A stretch of 40,319 nucleotides of DNA, taken from the IMG/VR virus record IMGVR_UViG_3300027865_000019, positions 1 through 40,319 of that record, one strand, 5' to 3'. The translations under genes were made by a program, and so were the position numbers. Position 1 is the stretch's first letter; each line of letters starts with the position of its first letter. Source of the stretch: a virus. The notes beneath the pieces are model-generated. The model had not been told where the DNA came from, did not search any database, and worked only from the letters and a program-made list of their open reading frames with translations. This document shows, one piece after another, positions 1,258 to 20,677 of the stretch.

Positions 1258-4200
1258 ATGGCAAGAGTACATTCACCAATGGAAATGTTAGGAAATATAT
1301 TGGTAGATACTGATAATGCTTATGATTTGGGTTCAATTTCAAAATATTGGCTAAATGGATATATTAGAAATTTAACCACAACAGGTATTTTTGATGCTGA
1401 TGGTGATACTTCAATACAAGTGGAAGAATCAGCAGATGAAGATATAATACGTTTTGATATAGGTGGAACAGAACAAATAACTTTAACAGATGGAGCATTA
1501 ACACCAACGACTGATAGTGATATTGATTTAGGAAGTCCAACTAATTGTTATGATGAAATATATGTTGATGATCTTCGTGGACCTGCTGATAGTAGTAGTT
1601 TTAGAATGTTTAATACAACAAGTGATGGTTCTGACAATAAAAGAATTCAACTTTGCCCTGGTGGAGCAGTATCGAATACTCGTGGGCCAGTATTAAATCT
1701 ATATGGTAATGAATATTCAATCAATAAAGGATATGTGTCTATTACATTAGGTAATGCAGCTGGAGAAGAACAGTTTTATATAGGGCAAGGTGCCTCAGAT
1801 GTTAAAAAACTTATAGTTGATCGACTGGCAGTATATCCAGGAGTAGATTCATCTGTTGATCTTGGGACTTCATCGGCATATTGGGATTATTGTTATTTTG
1901 ATAATATAGTTGGCCCCACAGTATTCAACGAAGCAGGTTCAGATATAGATTTCAGATTTGAAGGGAGTGGAGATGCTAATTTACTTTATACTGATGCAGG
2001 AAATGATAGAATAGGTATTGGCACAGCAACACCAGCTGCTCATTTAGATATTAATAAAGTTGATCCAGAAATAAGATTAACTGATACAGGAGATTCTAAT
2101 AATACTCGCATAACTAGAGCTGATACTGATGCAGTGGCACAAAGATTTAATACATCAATGAAGCCTGGTGGACCTGGAAATGCTTTAGATTTTGATGGTA
2201 ATGGGGATTATATTGATGTAGGAACATTAGGTTCCTTTGGAAGTAATCTGAATGCGTTTACTATTTCCATGTGGTTGAAATGGTCGCATTCAAGTGCTTG
2301 GCAAACTCCTTTTGGCTGGAGAAATGTTGATGCTACTCCTGCTTTGTATCTTTACGTAAATAGAAGAGGTGATACTGGTGCAAATAGCGCAGGAGATATT
2401 GCTTTTCATCTTGAAGATAATGATAACGATAAATTACAATTTGGGACAGTAGGAGAAAGTTTTAACGATGGAGCATGGCATCATGTTGTCTTTAGAATAA
2501 TCGATGCATCGAGCAATAGTGCGGAACTTTATGTAGATGGCGATAGTCAGTCTATACAGTTCGATGCCACAGATAGTCCGAATAATTTTAGTAATGCTGA
2601 TCGTAACATTTATTTGGGGGCAAGAAATGTCGCGGGTTCTACTAAAAATTACAATGGAATGATAGACGAAGCAGCAGTTTGGAACGTAACGTTGAGTGCG
2701 AATGATATTGGAGATTTATATAATTCAGGAAATGGACTTTTAATTGATCCAGCAGAAGACTGGCCAACAGACGGTGGTAGTATAGGAACAAATCTTGAAG
2801 CACTTTGGCATCATGACGAAACAGAGTTAAATTCTGCGCCAGGAGGAACTGATACAGAGGATGATTCAGGAAATGGAAATCATGGAACTGCGTCAGTAGG
2901 TATGACCGATGGTGATTTTGTAGCTGGAAAAATTTTACTTCCAGGATCAGATACAGAACATTCTATTTGGAAATCAGAAGACGGAACAAATCCTGTTGAA
3001 GCAGGAATTATAACTTTCGGAGATTCAGCTGGAAGAAACGTACAAACAGGCAAAACTTTACGATGGAATATATCAAGTTCTGAAAAAGCCCAAATGGATG
3101 CTAATGGAACTTTAACAATAGATAATAGCTCTACTACTTCACAGCAATTAATTTTAAGAGCAGCAGCAAGTGCTACGGAAAACATACAAGAGTGGCAAGA
3201 TTCATCTGATAATATACTTACAGCAATAGAGCCTGATGGTGAAATAATTATAAATCAAGACAGTAAGGCTATAAAATTTGGTGCAGCACAAGATGCAACA
3301 ATACAATTTGACGGAGATTCTTTAAATATAGTAGCAAATGCAGTAACAGGTGGAGATAATATGGAATTTACTGCAAATTCTTATACCTTTAAAACACAAG
3401 CAGATACAGATTTAGCAGTTAATTTTTCAGGGACTACAAACTCAGGTTTATTTACTTGGATGGAAGATGAAGACTATTTTGCTTTTGCAGATGATATTTT
3501 ATTAAACACAACAGAAAAAATTTATTTTAGAGATACAGCAATTAGTATTAATTCAGCAACTGATGGACATCTAGATTTAACAGCAGATGTTAGTGTAGAT
3601 TTTAATACGCCTGTATTAGATTTATCGGCTCAAACTGTAGATGTAACTTTAAATAATGCGGTTGATTCTTTAAATTTTGATAGTAATACTTTAAGCATAG
3701 ACGCTAGTAATAACAGAGTTGGGGTGGGTGATGCTGACCCAGACACTAAGTTGGAAGTAGCAGGAGCGGTAACGATTCAGGAGTTATCGTCTGATCCAAC
3801 TGATCCAGCAGAAGGTAAAGCTGTATTTTGGATGGGTGATGGTACAGGTTCAGGTTCAGATGGGGATTTGCTTTACATGGAACAATCGGGCGCAGTTGTT
3901 ACAACAGGAAGTCTTAAATGGACAGATTTTGTGCCTAGTTCAATAACAGTAAATGCAAGTGATGGTACAACAGGTTCGGTCACAGACGTACAAACAATGT
4001 TTGATGGAAATGTTTATGTGATTGATGAGCTAGCTGCGACACCAGGATATGATGTAGAATTTGTTTTTTCTAATGTAGATAAATGTCCAACATTTGTAGT
4101 AACGAGATGGTTATACGATGGTTCAGCAACACATGATGTTACATGGGATATTTGGAATTATAATAGTTCAGCTTGGGATACTTTAAGAGTGTTTAATGAT

Positions 4201-4371
4201 TCAGATTATTTTGCTAGTATGACCATGTATATTCCACAAGCAAGTGGGGGAGATTATGTAAGTGGAGGAGCGGCTAAAGTTAGGGTTTATCATCGTTCAG
4301 CAGGTAATGCTTCACATGACTTAACCATAGATTATGTAGGTTTAACTCATGGATTACAAGGTGTAATTTAA
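1258..4371 (+). CDS. Large tail fibre / adhesin with LamG-like domain
   Basis: 1037 residues. The N-terminal third has repeated fibre-shaft units (YDLGSISKYWLNGYI, then SDIDLGSPTNCYDEIYVDD, then SVDLGTSSAYWDYCYFDNI). RIGIGTATPAAHLDI near residue 250 and NRVGVGDADPDTKLEV near 825 match a motif common in phage tail fibres. Residues about 308-495 look like a concanavalin/LamG sandwich: ALDFDGNGDYIDVG, ISMWLKW, WHHVVFRI, ELYVDG and IDEAAVWNVTLS are its usual landmarks. The C-terminus is another beta-rich domain. It is probably a long receptor-binding fibre whose LamG domain recognises glycans. It is translated directly after the tailspike-like gene. No chaperone or self-cleavage motif (S74-type) is evident. 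Confidence 0.82.
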   Translation: MARVHSPMEMLGNILVDTDNAYDLGSISKYWLNGYIRNLTTTGIFDADGDTSIQVEESADEDIIRFDIGGTEQITLTDGALTPTTDSDIDLGSPTNCYDEIYVDDLRGPADSSSFRMFNTTSDGSDNKRIQLCPGGAVSNTRGPVLNLYGNEYSINKGYVSITLGNAAGEEQFYIGQGASDVKKLIVDRLAVYPGVDSSVDLGTSSAYWDYCYFDNIVGPTVFNEAGSDIDFRFEGSGDANLLYTDAGNDRIGIGTATPAAHLDINKVDPEIRLTDTGDSNNTRITRADTDAVAQRFNTSMKPGGPGNALDFDGNGDYIDVGTLGSFGSNLNAFTISMWLKWSHSSAWQTPFGWRNVDATPALYLYVNRRGDTGANSAGDIAFHLEDNDNDKLQFGTVGESFNDGAWHHVVFRIIDASSNSAELYVDGDSQSIQFDATDSPNNFSNADRNIYLGARNVAGSTKNYNGMIDEAAVWNVTLSANDIGDLYNSGNGLLIDPAEDWPTDGGSIGTNLEALWHHDETELNSAPGGTDTEDDSGNGNHGTASVGMTDGDFVAGKILLPGSDTEHSIWKSEDGTNPVEAGIITFGDSAGRNVQTGKTLRWNISSSEKAQMDANGTLTIDNSSTTSQQLILRAAASATENIQEWQDSSDNILTAIEPDGEIIINQDSKAIKFGAAQDATIQFDGDSLNIVANAVTGGDNMEFTANSYTFKTQADTDLAVNFSGTTNSGLFTWMEDEDYFAFADDILLNTTEKIYFRDTAISINSATDGHLDLTADVSVDFNTPVLDLSAQTVDVTLNNAVDSLNFDSNTLSIDASNNRVGVGDADPDTKLEVAGAVTIQELSSDPTDPAEGKAVFWMGDGTGSGSDGDLLYMEQSGAVVTTGSLKWTDFVPSSITVNASDGTTGSVTDVQTMFDGNVYVIDELAATPGYDVEFVFSNVDKCPTFVVTRWLYDGSATHDVTWDIWNYNSSAWDTLRVFNDSDYFASMTMYIPQASGGDYVSGGAAKVRVYHRSAGNASHDLTIDYVGLTHGLQGVI

Positions 4372-14421: not shown

Positions 14422-14560
14422 ATTTTTCTAAAATTAATTCATTTAATATCTTAGCCATTGATATTTTCTGCTCTTTTTTTTGCCTTCTTAATATACCATG
14501 ACATTTTTTTATAAGCCATACTTGTCGATATTGTTCTAATTCTGGTTCTCTGTACTGCAT
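14390..14560 (-). CDS. Small basic helical protein
   Basis: 56 residues (EPELEQYRQVWLIKKC, then QKKEQKISMAKILNELIL). Starts at 14560, just before a stretch holding TATAAT elements on both strands, and ends inside the HNH gene in another frame after a run of nine A. Unknown; could be a regulator. Confidence 0.5.
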   Translation of the reverse strand: MQYREPELEQYRQVWLIKKCHGILRRQKKEQKISMAKILNELILEKYGYNEKKRME

Positions 14561-14564
14561 ATAT

Positions 14565-14580
14565 TATAATCTACTATAAT
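14565..14580 (+). promoter_or_regulatory. Tandem -10 elements for the rightward RNA
   Basis: TATAAT at 14565-14570 and again at 14575-14580. The -35 region is poor. A start about 7 bases after the second falls at about 14587, at the foot of the long stem that begins at 14590. A TATAAT also reads leftward at 14563-14568. Confidence 0.45.
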
Positions 14581-14586
14581 GTATTA

Positions 14587-14800
14587 TGTCCCTTTTCTTT
14601 AAGTCCACTCCTGCCCGATAAACACTTGTCATGGTCTTGGTAGCCCACTTGCCCTAGCCCTAAAAAAAAGTCTTAGGTCTTGGAAGGTTATTTATTATCG
14701 GTGTAGGAGAATTGTTAAGAAAAGGGTAAAAGAATATAGGAGGCTAACAATAAGGAGTCATTTAATTTATGTAATCCCGACTCAAGAGATTACTTTTTTT
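14587..14800 (+). ncRNA. Predicted structured small RNA with terminator
   Basis: About 214 nt. Base stem CCCTTTTCTT (14590-14599) with AAGAAAAGGG (14717-14726), then CTCCT (14608-14612) with AGGAG (14705-14709), then CCGATAA (14615-14621) with TTATCGG (14695-14701). These are three consecutive helices enclosing a loop region with an inner hairpin (CCTAA/TTAGG). The 3' end has a rho-independent terminator: GTAATC (14771-14776), GATTAC (14788-14793) and seven T. A TATAAT precedes it. An AGGAGG near 14739 is not followed by an ORF. No protein fits on this strand. Not recognised as a known family; a comparative search would decide. Confidence 0.6.
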
Positions 14801-14802
14801 AT

Positions 14803-14944
14803 TTATATTATTAGCTTTCTATGTTCTTTTAGTTTTGTAAAACCTAAACTCTTAAACGCTTTAGACGTCAGTCGCCCTTAGAGGCTAATAATATAAGGGC
14901 TAAAACAAAAGTTGAAGTACTTCACTGAAACTTATATTATTAGC
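14803..14944. repeat. Three alternating copies of a 13-bp arm
   Basis: TTATATTATTAGC at 14803-14815, its reverse complement at 14884-14896, and the forward form again at 14932-14944. The middle copy can pair with either outer copy but not both, so two alternative hairpins exist. A separate stem GCCCTTA (14874-14880) with TAAGGGC (14894-14900) competes with both. No gene lies here. Confidence 0.75.
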
Positions 14945-14959
14945 TTTTAAGGATTATTG

Positions 14960-15050
14960 AAAAAAAATACAATATTAGACTTCGCTTCGCCTAGAAACCT
15001 CGCTACAAGGTGGCTAAGCTTAGCCTAATATTGTATTCATTGTAGCGAGG
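14960..15050 (-). ncRNA. Pseudoknot-forming element with leftward terminator
   Basis: A 13-bp perfect stem (14966-14978 with 15025-15037) is followed on the minus strand by eight T, a strong leftward terminator. The loop contains CCTCGCTACAA (14998-15008), which is perfectly complementary to TTGTAGCGAGG (15040-15050) just outside the stem, so an 11-bp H-type pseudoknot is possible on either strand. The loop also holds a 14-bp palindrome, GGCTAAGCTTAGCC (15011-15024). It may be the 3' end of a leftward structured RNA. Confidence 0.6.
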
Positions 15051-15110
15051 GGATTGAGTTGTATTTAAATTGTAATTTATTTAAAGAACTTTGTCAAGTG
15101 AGTTATCAAC

Positions 15111-16744: not shown

Positions 16745-16934
16745 TGTCTAGTACTTTTTTAATTTTATTCCAAGTTTCTTCATTCATTATTCTGTAACCG
16801 TGAGCATATTTACTGAAATTGCTTTCTGCTATATTAGCTTGTCTTGCTACTTCTCTCATTGTCATATTTGCATGTCTGCATAATTTAATTAAATCAACTG
16901 TATGAATTGCTATTGTTTTATATTTTGCTGTCAT
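16719..16934 (-). CDS. XRE/Cro-type helix-turn-helix regulator
   Basis: 71 residues. TMREVARQANIAESNFSKYA (about residues 25-44) is a classical helix-turn-helix with the AxxANIxxSxxSKY pattern. It is the first gene of the leftward early operon, 28 bases after a near-consensus promoter, and very likely controls the divergent region 16935-17100. No partner integrase or larger repressor is present, so a Cro-like early regulator is more likely than a lysogeny repressor. Confidence 0.75.
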   Translation of the reverse strand: MTAKYKTIAIHTVDLIKLCRHANMTMREVARQANIAESNFSKYAHGYRIMNEETWNKIKKVLDNEKYKTTN

Positions 16935-16961
16935 AAATATTGCTTATTTAATAGTATCTAA

Positions 16962-16990
16962 AGTATATATTATTTGTACAAAACTGTCAA
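16962..16990 (-). promoter_or_regulatory. Leftward early promoter
   Basis: On the minus strand: TTGACA (16985-16990), 17 bp, TATACT (16962-16967). The -35 is perfect and the -10 has five of six matches. Predicted start about 16955, 20 bases before the regulator's ATG. Drives the early operon. Confidence 0.8.
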
Positions 16991-17004
16991 GTCCCATTAC
17001 TGCT

Positions 17005-17019
17005 CTAAGTTATACTAAG
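17005..17019. promoter_or_regulatory. Possible operator: CTAAG direct repeat
   Basis: CTAAG-TTATA-CTAAG: two copies 10 bp apart, one helical turn, immediately upstream of the leftward -35 and between the divergent promoters. A plausible binding site for the XRE regulator; inference only. Confidence 0.35.
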
Positions 17020-17063
17020 ATTAGCTCAAATTTTAGCCTGTTAATAACTTGTTAATTAAAATT

Positions 17064-17092
17064 TTGATAAATAATAGTAAAACATTTATAAT
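17064..17092 (+). promoter_or_regulatory. Rightward promoter for a leaderless gene
   Basis: TTGATA (17064-17069), 17 bp, TATAAT (17087-17092). The ATG of the next gene is at 17100, eight bases after the -10, so the transcript would begin at or next to the start codon. Confidence 0.7.
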
Positions 17093-17099
17093 AAACTAC

Positions 17100-17291
17100 A
17101 TGGAAAAGAGAAAATTAATACAAAAATTAAATGGGATGCAGATTAAAGCTGAAAAGTGGCGTAGCTATATGAGTTATCAATATTTTATTAGAAATCAAGG
17201 AGTAAATGATTTATATCGTGAAATGGATGTGCTTTGCGGAATAGTACTTGAAAAACAAAAGGAAAAAAAGTTTTCCACTATTAGAATTTGA
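17100..17291 (+). CDS. Small basic protein, probably from a leaderless mRNA
   Basis: 63 residues from ATG at 17100 (MEKRKLIQKLNGMQIKAEKW). The in-frame upstream start at 17049 would precede the promoter's start site, so it is rejected. Basic and helical, with LYREMDVLCGIVLEKQKEK. First rightward gene opposite the XRE regulator; possibly regulatory. Its TGA overlaps the -35 of the following RNA promoter. Confidence 0.6.
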   Translation: MEKRKLIQKLNGMQIKAEKWRSYMSYQYFIRNQGVNDLYREMDVLCGIVLEKQKEKKFSTIRI

Positions 17292-17316
17292 CAATATTAT
17301 ATTAAATTGGTACTAT
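17288..17316 (+). promoter_or_regulatory. Consensus -35 promoter for structured RNA
   Basis: TTGACA (17288-17293), 17 bp, TACTAT (17311-17316). Predicted start about 17322-17324, where the 13-bp helix of the structured RNA begins. Confidence 0.7.
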
Positions 17317-17320
17317 AAAT

Positions 17321-17700
17321 ATAGATATCTAGTGAGGTCGTCAGATCTCCGTTCGGTCAAGTTAGCAAGCTAACACATATTTCAAACTGAAGACTAGATA
17401 TCTATATGAATACATATTCGAGGATTCGCTCGAAAACAAATAACTGCGTTACGTGTACCTTATTATCGTCCGTTTCGAGAAATAAGTAAACTACGTAATT
17501 GCGATAGAGGATTATCATAATCTATCATCGACCCTAGCGGATAAATCTAGGGAAGCGGCTGGGCTGGGATAACACTACGGGATAGGTATGTGCCAGCCTT
17601 GTTACTAAATAATATTCTTACATCTCTTGCTAAATGCATCTTAGTAGAGAACAGATTAGTTTTTTGTTCGTTGATCTTCAGCTTTTTGCTGGAGATGTAA
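17321..17700 (+). ncRNA. Large structured non-coding RNA with its own promoter
   Basis: No ORF fits, the bases are visibly richer in G and C than the surroundings, and helices are dense. ATAGATATCTAGT (17321-17333) pairs with 17393-17405 (13 bp) and encloses GTTAG/CTAAC and TTCA/TGAA hairpins. Further helices: TTCGAG/CTCGAA (17417-17422, 17429-17434); TTACGT/ACGTAA (17449-17454, 17493-17498) around CTTATT/AATAAG (17459-17464, 17481-17486); GATAGA/TCTATC (17503-17508, 17521-17526); CCCTAG/CTAGGG (17532-17537, 17547-17552); GGCTGG/CCAGCC (17557-17562, 17593-17598); and TTACATCTC/GAGATGTAA (17618-17626, 17692-17700). TTCGAG at 17473-17478 could swap into the second helix. The transcript may run on to the terminator at 17908-17934, about 610 nt. 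Size and complexity recall the large phage RNAs ROOL and GOLLD, but I cannot show homology. Confidence 0.75.
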
Positions 17701-17710
17701 AAATGTTATT

Positions 17711-17875
17711 ATGTTAAAATTTCTATTAACAGTAAATAATCAACATAGAGATGGTTTTAAACTATCTGCTCAAGCTGAAACCAAAGAAGAGTAAGAGATA
17801 GTTAATAGTTTAACTAGTAAATTAATAGAGAAAATTCGATCTATTGAAGTTAAAGTATCAAACGATTATGAATAG
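17711..17875 (+). pseudogene. Small ORF interrupted by an in-frame TAA
   Basis: Codons 1-27 read MLKFLLTVNNQHRDGFKLSA and on to KEE, then TAA at 17792-17794. The same frame continues for 26 protein-like codons (EIVNSLTSKLIEKIRS...) to TAG at 17873-17875. The downstream part has no start codon of its own. A single substitution (for example GAA to TAA) would explain it; so would a sequencing error or a real nonsense allele. The GGAG preceding the gene lies in two competing helices of the upstream RNA. Confidence 0.5.
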
Positions 17876-17907
17876 ATTATTAAAAATTAGACAGGCATTA
17901 AAACAAT

Positions 17908-17934
17908 CCTAATTATTATAATTGGGTTTTTTTT
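17908..17934 (+). terminator. Rho-independent terminator
   Basis: CCTAATT (17908-17914), loop ATTAT, AATTGGG (17920-17926) with one T-G pair, then eight T. The next ATG follows directly at 17935, so this could terminate the RNA/ORF unit or attenuate the downstream operon. Confidence 0.7.
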
Positions 17935-18087
17935 ATGATAAAAGAAAAAAAAGAAATAAAAATAATAAAAGAATATTTTTGTGATAAATGCAAATCAGGG
18001 TTAATTGTAGATTTTTTAGGTGAGTATATACACTTAAATGATTGGTTTTTAAGCAAAGATAGTCATATTTGTGAAAATTGTCAATAA
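17935..18087 (+). CDS. Small zinc-ribbon protein
   Basis: 50 residues: basic N-terminus, then YFCDKCKSGL and HICENCQ, two CxxC pairs about 26 residues apart forming a likely zinc ribbon. Unknown function. Starts at the last T of a terminator. Confidence 0.55.
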   Translation: MIKEKKEIKIIKEYFCDKCKSGLIVDFLGEYIHLNDWFLSKDSHICENCQ

Positions 18088-18091
18088 TTTG

Positions 18092-18158
18092 TTTCTAGTT
18101 CTTTCTTAATTGAAAGAAATGATTTAGACATAGCTTATCTTTAGGGATGAGCTAGAAA
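18092..18158 (+). ncRNA. Three-way-junction RNA element upstream of a small gene
   Basis: TTTCTAG (18092-18098) faces CTAGAAA (18152-18158). Between them are the hairpins TTCTTTC/GAAAGAA (18099-18105, 18112-18118) and AGCTTATC/GATGAGCT (18132-18139, 18146-18153). The second hairpin shares two bases with the closing stem. It ends 14 bases before the ATG at 18173, so a leader regulator or riboswitch-like role is possible. Confidence 0.5.
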
Positions 18159-18172
18159 TAAGTTAACAAGAT

Positions 18173-18343
18173 ATGTATATATTCAATAGAAAATTAAAAA
18201 AAAGAATAAAGTCATTAGAGTAATTTTTAGGTATTTATTACAGTCAAGATGATGATTTGCATGTTCCAGAAACTGATTATGGATTTATTAAAAAAGTAAA
18301 TGATTTATTAGAAGAAAAAGATAAAGAAGATAAAAAGAAATGA
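18173..18343 (+). pseudogene. Small ORF interrupted by an in-frame TAA
   Basis: Codons 1-16 (MYIFNRKLKKRIKSLE), TAA at 18221-18223, then 39 further protein-like codons (FLGIYYSQDDDLHVPETDYG...) to TGA at 18341-18343. That TGA overlaps the next ATG as ATGA, exactly as intact genes of this operon do, so the whole frame was or is a gene. TTG at codon 29 could restart translation. Compare 17711-17875 and 24931-25053. Confidence 0.55.
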
Positions 18344-19095: not shown

Positions 19096-19497
19096 ATGAG
19101 TGAGAATAAAGTTGGGCGACCAACAGTAATGACAGAAGAAACAGTCAATAAATTAGAGGAGATATTTGCATTAGGTGGAAGTGATAGAGAAGCTTGCTTT
19201 TATGCTAATATTAGCAAACAAACGCTGTATGATTATCAAGAAAAACATCCAGAATTTATTGACCGAAAAGAGGCATTGAAAGAAACGCCTATTCTTAAAG
19301 CTAGACGAGAAGTAGTAAAAGGATTGAGTAATTATCAAAATGCAATGGACTTTTTAAAGAGAAAGCGCAAGAAAGAGTTTAGCGAAAGAATAGAGAATGA
19401 TATTACAAGTGGAGATGAGAAACTTAATCAAGTATTAGTTAAATTTATAGATGGAAAAGACAATCAACATACCAACAGAGTATCAGAGGTTGTTTGA
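19096..19497 (+). CDS. terS: Terminase small subunit
   Basis: 133 residues. VGRPTVMTEETVNKLEEIF followed by ACFYANISKQTLYDYQEKHP is the helix-turn-helix DNA-recognition region of phage small terminases. A helical oligomerisation part follows (RREVVKGLSNYQNAMDFL). It overlaps the large-subunit gene by 47 bp, the usual coupled order. It would recognise packaging DNA and stimulate the large subunit. Confidence 0.82.
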   Translation: MSENKVGRPTVMTEETVNKLEEIFALGGSDREACFYANISKQTLYDYQEKHPEFIDRKEALKETPILKARREVVKGLSNYQNAMDFLKRKRKKEFSERIENDITSGDEKLNQVLVKFIDGKDNQHTNRVSEVV

Positions 19498-20677
19498 TAA
19501 TGATTGGAGAGAAGCAGCAGTATATGGTGGTAGATATTCTTTAAAATCTCATACAGTAGCGAGATTCTTATTGATTAGAGCAAGAGAGAAGAAAACTAGA
19601 GTAATGTGTTGTCGTGAGTTTCAGAATTCAATAGCTGATAGTTCACATCAATTACTATCTGATTTGATAAATAAATATGAATTGAGGGATTTTGAAATAA
19701 GAAATAACGCAATATATAATAAAATAACTGAATCAGACTTTATATTTAAAGGACTGCATAACAACGAGCAAAGCATTAAATCAACAGAGGGTATAGACAT
19801 AGCATGGGTAGAAGAAGCTCAAACAGTTTCAAAAAATAGTTTAGAAATATTAACACCGACAGTTAGGAAAAAAGGTTCAAAAATAGTATATACATATAAT
19901 CGGCTTATAGAAGATGACCCTGTACACACTAGGCTCATAATAGAGGGAAGGCCAAAAACATTAATTATAAATGTAAATTATGACATCGCCATAAAGTATG
20001 AGATGATGCCGGATGAGATATTGCAAGAGATAGAGGATGACAAAAAGAACAGACCAAGTTTATACAAACATAAATGGCTGGGAGATCCTTATAACTTAGA
20101 GAGAAAGATATATAAGAACTGGAAGATAATTGATAATGATATACCGCACGAAGCAAGATTAGAGCGTAGAGGATTAGACTTTGGTTATTCAGTAGACCCA
20201 ACGGCAATAGTAGATATTTATAAATACAATCAAGGATTTATCTTAGATGAAGTAACATACCAGAAGGGACTTAGCAATAAACAAATAGCAGATATTATAC
20301 AAGGAAGGGAAGACAATATTACGGTTTACGCAGATAGTGCAGAACCCAAGAGCATAGATGAGATAAGAGATTACGGTGCGAATATCTTCCCAGCACAGAA
20401 AGGACAAGGGAGTGTTAATCAAGGCATACAGTATTTGCAAGACCAACGTATTTCAGTAACAAGAAGAAGTACAAATATAATAAAAGAATATAATAGTTAC
20501 TTTTTCAAGGAGGACAGAGAGGGAAGAATGCTTAATGTGCCAGAAGATTTATATAATCACATGATGGATGCTATAAGATACGGATTAAGCGGCTATGACC
20601 CAGAGTTAGGCACGCCAGAGGAAAGAGAAAGAATAGAGTTTAATCGTCAAAATAAAATGAGAAATGAGTTTTTTTAA
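19451..20677 (+). CDS. terL: Terminase large subunit
   Basis: 408 residues, typical size. The ATPase has Walker A GGRYSLKS (26-33) and Walker B IDIAWVEE (115-122) with the catalytic Glu. YTYNRL near 147-152 fits the coupling-motif area. The nuclease domain starts about 235: GLDFGYSVDP with Asp243, YADSAEP with Asp295 and HMMDAIRYG with Asp373, the three metal-binding acids of the RNase H-like fold. It packages and cuts phage DNA, docking on the portal encoded downstream. The family is Terminase_3/PBSX-like. The packaging mode (cos or pac) cannot be read off. Walker A carries Tyr and Leu at usually small positions, but the Lys-Ser is intact. Confidence 0.95.
   Translation: MEKTINIPTEYQRLFDNDWREAAVYGGRYSLKSHTVARFLLIRAREKKTRVMCCREFQNSIADSSHQLLSDLINKYELRDFEIRNNAIYNKITESDFIFKGLHNNEQSIKSTEGIDIAWVEEAQTVSKNSLEILTPTVRKKGSKIVYTYNRLIEDDPVHTRLIIEGRPKTLIINVNYDIAIKYEMMPDEILQEIEDDKKNRPSLYKHKWLGDPYNLERKIYKNWKIIDNDIPHEARLERRGLDFGYSVDPTAIVDIYKYNQGFILDEVTYQKGLSNKQIADIIQGREDNITVYADSAEPKSIDEIRDYGANIFPAQKGQGSVNQGIQYLQDQRISVTRRSTNIIKEYNSYFFKEDREGRMLNVPEDLYNHMMDAIRYGLSGYDPELGTPEERERIEFNRQNKMRNEFF

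Follow-up and report, generated by a model that had tools for sequence, protein, structure and literature searches.

A non-coding stretch with a predicted dense fold at the head of the late genes of a phage and a second, pseudoknotted RNA candidate on the minus strand

The window, that is the whole stretch of 40,319 nucleotides analysed here (IMG/VR virus record IMGVR_UViG_3300027865_000019, positions 1 to 40,319), contains a leftward and a rightward block of genes. The leftward (early) block runs from 16934 downwards and begins with a Cro/C1-type HTH gene, followed by an HNH gene and, farther on, by a RusA-like resolvase. In the rightward direction a 63-aa ORF, a structured stretch, several small ORFs, the terminase small subunit (TerS, from 19096), the terminase large subunit (TerL, from 19451) and capsid genes are found in this order. 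The gene direction switches just upstream of the structured stretch, along which the GC skew changes sign from negative to positive. Since leftward genes lie on one side and TerS/TerL and the capsid genes follow rightward on the other, the stretch heads the late block. No tRNA was found in the window and no Q-like gene was recognised among the proteins scanned. The features of the region are the following.

17064–17092, plus strand: second, upstream promoter TTGATA-17-TATAAT (11/12), preceding the 63-aa ORF (17100–17291)
17288–17316, plus strand: sigma70-type promoter TTGACA-17-(TG)-TACTAT from a consensus scan, predicted start at about 17323
17319–17407, plus strand: predicted 5' domain, a 15-bp closing repeat around the hairpins 17334–17349 and 17361–17374 (fold, z −3.5)
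17417–17434, plus strand: predicted 6-bp hairpin TTCGAG/CTCGAA (fold, pair probability 0.95)
17446–17502, plus strand: predicted stem GCG-TTACGT...ACGTAA-TGC with the inner stem CTTATT/AATAAG (fold)
17503–17606, plus strand: predicted central G+C-rich part with the hairpins 17503–17526 and 17532–17552 (CCCTAG/CTAGGG) and a long stem 17554–17606 (fold, z −2.2)
17609–17709, plus strand: predicted 3' domain, an 18-bp interrupted stem 17609–17627/17691–17709 (fold, z −4.5)
17711–17875, plus strand: 27-codon frame (MLKFLLTVNNQHRDGFKLSAQAETKEE) closed by TAA, after which the reading frame continues open for 26 more codons (frame scan)
17908–17934, plus strand: hairpin CCTAATTATTATAATTGGG with a T8 tail resembling a weak terminator (−4.7 kcal/mol), the possible end of a short transcript
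19096–20677, plus strand: genes of the small and large terminase subunits, the first ones that can be recognised downstream

The perfect TTGACA with a 17-bp spacing that had been reported in a first-pass annotation is present at 17288–17293. It is followed by an imperfect −10 element (TACTAT, 17311–17316) with an extended TG ahead of it, so that the whole promoter matches the consensus in 10 of 12 positions. Between 16.9 kb and TerS only the sites at 17064 and 17288 reach at least 10/12 on the plus strand. The scan returned 23 promoter-like sites in 3.1 kb of this AT-rich DNA vs 19.7 expected, so a promoter match alone is weak evidence. Transcription from an own promoter at 17288–17316, as the annotation had it, is therefore plausible as a consensus match carrying the TG, of a kind that is common here.

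At most four bases from the predicted start begins a perfect 15-bp inverted repeat (arms 17319–17333/17393–17407), the longest of the phage with a spacer of up to 100. The promoter had been described as firing at the foot of a 13-bp helix; the location is right, but the helix is longer. An RNA starting at 17323 would hold about 11 bp of it. Just four perfect repeats with arms of at least 13 bp and spacers of up to 100 exist in the 40 kb, the remaining three sitting in a second non-coding region (14.8–15.05 kb), and 10 dinucleotide shuffles of the phage yielded none with such arms.

The plus strand of 17321–17720 folds with a predicted energy of −117.2 kcal/mol (z about −5.3 to −5.6), a value reached by none of 100 shuffles, whereas the minus strand is weaker (−98.0 kcal/mol, z −3.9). 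When the domains are folded separately, the 5' and the 3' domain lie clearly beyond their shuffles, the middle less so. Besides the foot helix the fold holds about ten helices of 6–10 bp, a few of them with G-U pairs. Perfect helices of at least 6 bp number 10 vs 5.3 ± 2.3 in shuffles; this bears out the annotated seven or more further helices as a count, but 14 of 300 shuffles equal it and the count by itself is only mildly above chance. A few to several coding windows (211 windows of the phage tested) match or beat the z value, so that z alone is not unique to the stretch. The G+C content is 0.367–0.382 vs 0.138–0.243 in the immediate flanks, in agreement with the annotation, and 0.319 in the window; coding regions elsewhere in the phage reach 0.40–0.47. 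The absence of an ORF was also confirmed, the longest stop-free frames comprising 49–52 aa and the longest plus-strand frame being without a match in Pfam. Fold energy and the difference between the strands thus support a predicted structured RNA on the plus strand of 17321–17720, as do the exceptional 15-bp repeat at the start point, the lack of coding and the lack of an Rfam match described below.

The stem of the 3' domain includes a ribosome-site-like GGAG eight bases 5' of an ATG at 17703, which opens a four-codon frame overlapping the start of the 27-codon frame at 17711; translational coupling from the end of the predicted RNA is therefore possible. The segment 17711–17875 itself looks like one small gene interrupted by a stop. 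No strong intrinsic terminator was found directly after the structured stretch, which may therefore be the leader of a late mRNA and not a free RNA. Among the small ORFs before TerS, a long hairpin lies at 18085–18175 on the plus strand (17-bp outer stem, z −4.8, no T tail).

To our knowledge, only a handful of large structured RNAs have been described in phages, most of them without a function. A covariance-model search of Rfam (4227 families including introns, ribozymes, riboswitches, tmRNA, ROOL and GOLLD) gave no match at the gathering score, and none up to E 10 within 16900–18200; the first-pass annotation had likewise recognised no specific motif. It had, however, been reminded of ROOL and GOLLD. 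ROOL RNAs form a homo-octameric RNA nanocage and are frequently located close to tRNA islands; ROOL env-120 has a length of 659 nt, and GOLLD, whose 3' region is conserved, often exceeds 800 nt (PMC12286853). The stretch resembles ROOL, also found in prophages, in being large, densely structured, phage-borne and ORF-free, and GOLLD in being phage-borne, ornate and possibly late expressed. In contrast, it measures only about 390 nt, roughly half the length of GOLLD, matches neither model and has no tRNA in the window, so that beyond size and density the comparison finds no support. A working analogy is the put RNA of phage HK022, about 70 nt with two stem-loops near a phage promoter, where the nascent RNA alone suppresses termination (PMC9378689). 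Like put, the stretch would be a structured RNA that directly follows a phage promoter and opens a transcription unit, but put belongs to early units, whereas the stretch, though near a promoter, has neither the size nor the two-stem-loop form of put and lies with its roughly ten helices ahead of late genes.

In phage lambda, too, the late genes are preceded by a promoter and a non-coding leader (pR'-6S-tR'). Here, however, no strong terminator follows and, as mentioned, a Q-like gene was not recognised.

Relatives of the stretch were sought in several ways. A blastn search against phage and plasmid collections found nothing similar. For comparison, 58 loci were collected as relatives by TerL (up to 73 % identity) or by portal, and neither blastn nor nhmmer recognised a copy in any of them. 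Likewise, no homolog was obtained with exact 21–22-mers in viral and genome contigs, with the frame 17551–17697 as a degenerate probe, with the neighbouring proteins as anchors or with two single-sequence covariance models run on about 0.55 Mb of relatives (one of them also on 25 whole records). A match of the foot-domain model on the minus strand of one relative (L008) had an E value of 0.5 and was not significant. A pattern of the loops only, with free helix positions, gave 28 matches in the viral and genome collections, and in none of these were more than 4 of the 6 positions complementary. Most of the small neighbours are also without relatives among the fetched loci, and the sequence therefore comes from a poorly sampled lineage.

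The closest TerL relative (L002, 73 %) has a consensus promoter, TTGACA-16-TATAAT, in the same place, followed by a leader of about 200 nt that is also foldable but different and carries a terminator. A layout of promoter, leader and terminator before the terminase seemed by eye to be shared by L002, L008 and L020, but was not enriched when counted (promoter-then-terminator pairs: 4/43 upstream of TerL vs 5/56), so that an attenuation layout common to the relatives is unsupported. Near-consensus promoters in the relatives number 35 in 88 kb upstream and 14 in 126 kb downstream of TerL, a comparison in which composition was uncontrolled. Some loci carry structures of other kinds. A strong fold in L006 proved to be a repeat array (1130–1350) of iteron-like direct and inverted GTGACATAC repeats. 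The region 552–720 of L009, upstream of TerL, has a promoter and behind it a foldable segment of about 90 nt and a tRNA (Rfam match 644–715), and L059 has two structured-looking non-coding stretches upstream of its portal gene (3190–3480 and 3980–4270), the second with a T-arm-like GCAAGGTGCGAATCCTTGC.

Our tentative reading, at a probability somewhat short of even, is that 17323 to about 17714 forms the 5' leader of a rightward late transcript, a densely folded and non-coding RNA that would act in cis. This reading is based on the fold and its strand preference, the promoter-like sequence directly before it, the absence of an ORF, the switch of gene direction upstream, TerS/TerL downstream and the missing strong terminator. 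It also draws on the foot repeat starting by the predicted start, the 5' and 3' domains being significant each on its own, the promoter with a foldable leader in the same place in L002 and the denser near-consensus promoters upstream of TerL. Transcription would start at 17323 and run into the packaging and structural genes, and the RNA would stay joined to the late transcript or be cut from it. In cis it might mediate put-type read-through into the late genes by the RNA polymerase that made it, or alternatively shield the long late mRNA at its 5' end. Against the leader reading stand the lack of any homolog, and hence of covariation, and the few coding windows that reach a similar z; against a put-like leader stands its length, about five times that of put RNA. 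The size and density of the stretch, a promoter-like sequence at its start, its place beside the late genes and its high local G+C would also suit a free-standing, processed ornate RNA that is similar to ROOL and GOLLD and acts in trans or within an RNA assembly; having no match in Rfam it would then belong to another family. A predicted loop-loop contact of four bases between UCCG (17469–17472) and CGGA (17538–17541) would allow tertiary contacts in such an RNA. However, a 3' end without a strong intrinsic terminator, the lack of tRNA neighbours and of a copy in any other phage searched make this second-ranked explanation an unlikely one. Antisense targets of the stretch in the phage were only 11–13-mers, judged to be chance.

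Two further explanations would make the RNA structure incidental or accidental. The missing homologs, the coding windows with the same z and the modest excess of helices would all fit chance or a remnant, either a degenerate gene or a fragment picked up from elsewhere, with additional helices owing to its higher G+C. However, the shuffles produced neither perfect repeats of at least 13 bp nor a fold as stable, and the missing Pfam match of the longest plus-strand frame and the empty blastn result in phages and plasmids also speak against this explanation, which we regard as improbable. Least weight is given to a DNA element, i.e. a pac/cos packaging site, a replication origin or paired operators. 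The stretch lies in a divergent control region near TerS where the GC skew changes sign, and the foot helix derives from the palindrome TAGATATCTA, which is present twice, once at the start point. On the other hand, the skew tracks the gene direction here, the plus strand folds better than the minus strand and the foot pairing reaches five bases past what the palindromes account for. Such an element is also less likely because DnaA boxes of the form TTATNCACA are absent from the window and iterons from the region, and because TAGATATCTA is confined to the two arms and occurs nowhere else in the window.

It is conceivable, though again not quite an even bet, that the phage carries an undescribed class of large RNA, as the first-pass annotation also considered, about 390 nt long and transcribed at the early/late boundary from a promoter of its own, beside a second undescribed, covarying pseudoknot RNA near 15062–14963. 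If true, an RNA at the early/late switch would have a role in late transcription that can be tested; as the stretch is so far the only sequence of its kind, the conclusions on it are limited.

The second RNA is better supported than the structured stretch at 17321–17720. A minus-strand promoter, TTGACA(15097)-17-TACAAT, is followed at about 15062–14963 by an RNA ordered A-B-A'-B' and by T8, which corresponds to an H-type pseudoknot with a helix A of 10–11 bp, a helix B of 13–14 bp and a poly-T end. The same A-B-A'-B' order is found behind TTGACA-17-TAAGAT on the minus strand of L002 (about 1010–912). Between the window and L002, 11 of the 23 compared pairs are changed on both sides and all pairs are still standard, while GGCTA-AGCTTAGCC and TCTAGGCG are conserved. 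No Rfam family matched this RNA at the gathering score, and a scan of the viral collection for the motif pair GGCTA-AGCTTAGCC/TCTAGGCG found no further member. Judged from the sequences, it is a candidate for a new small RNA or a terminator-coupled switch. The continuation of this non-coding stretch (14560–14960, minus strand) contains GCTAATAATATAA(G)/CTTATATTATTAGC in three alternating copies, which could form mutually exclusive hairpins.
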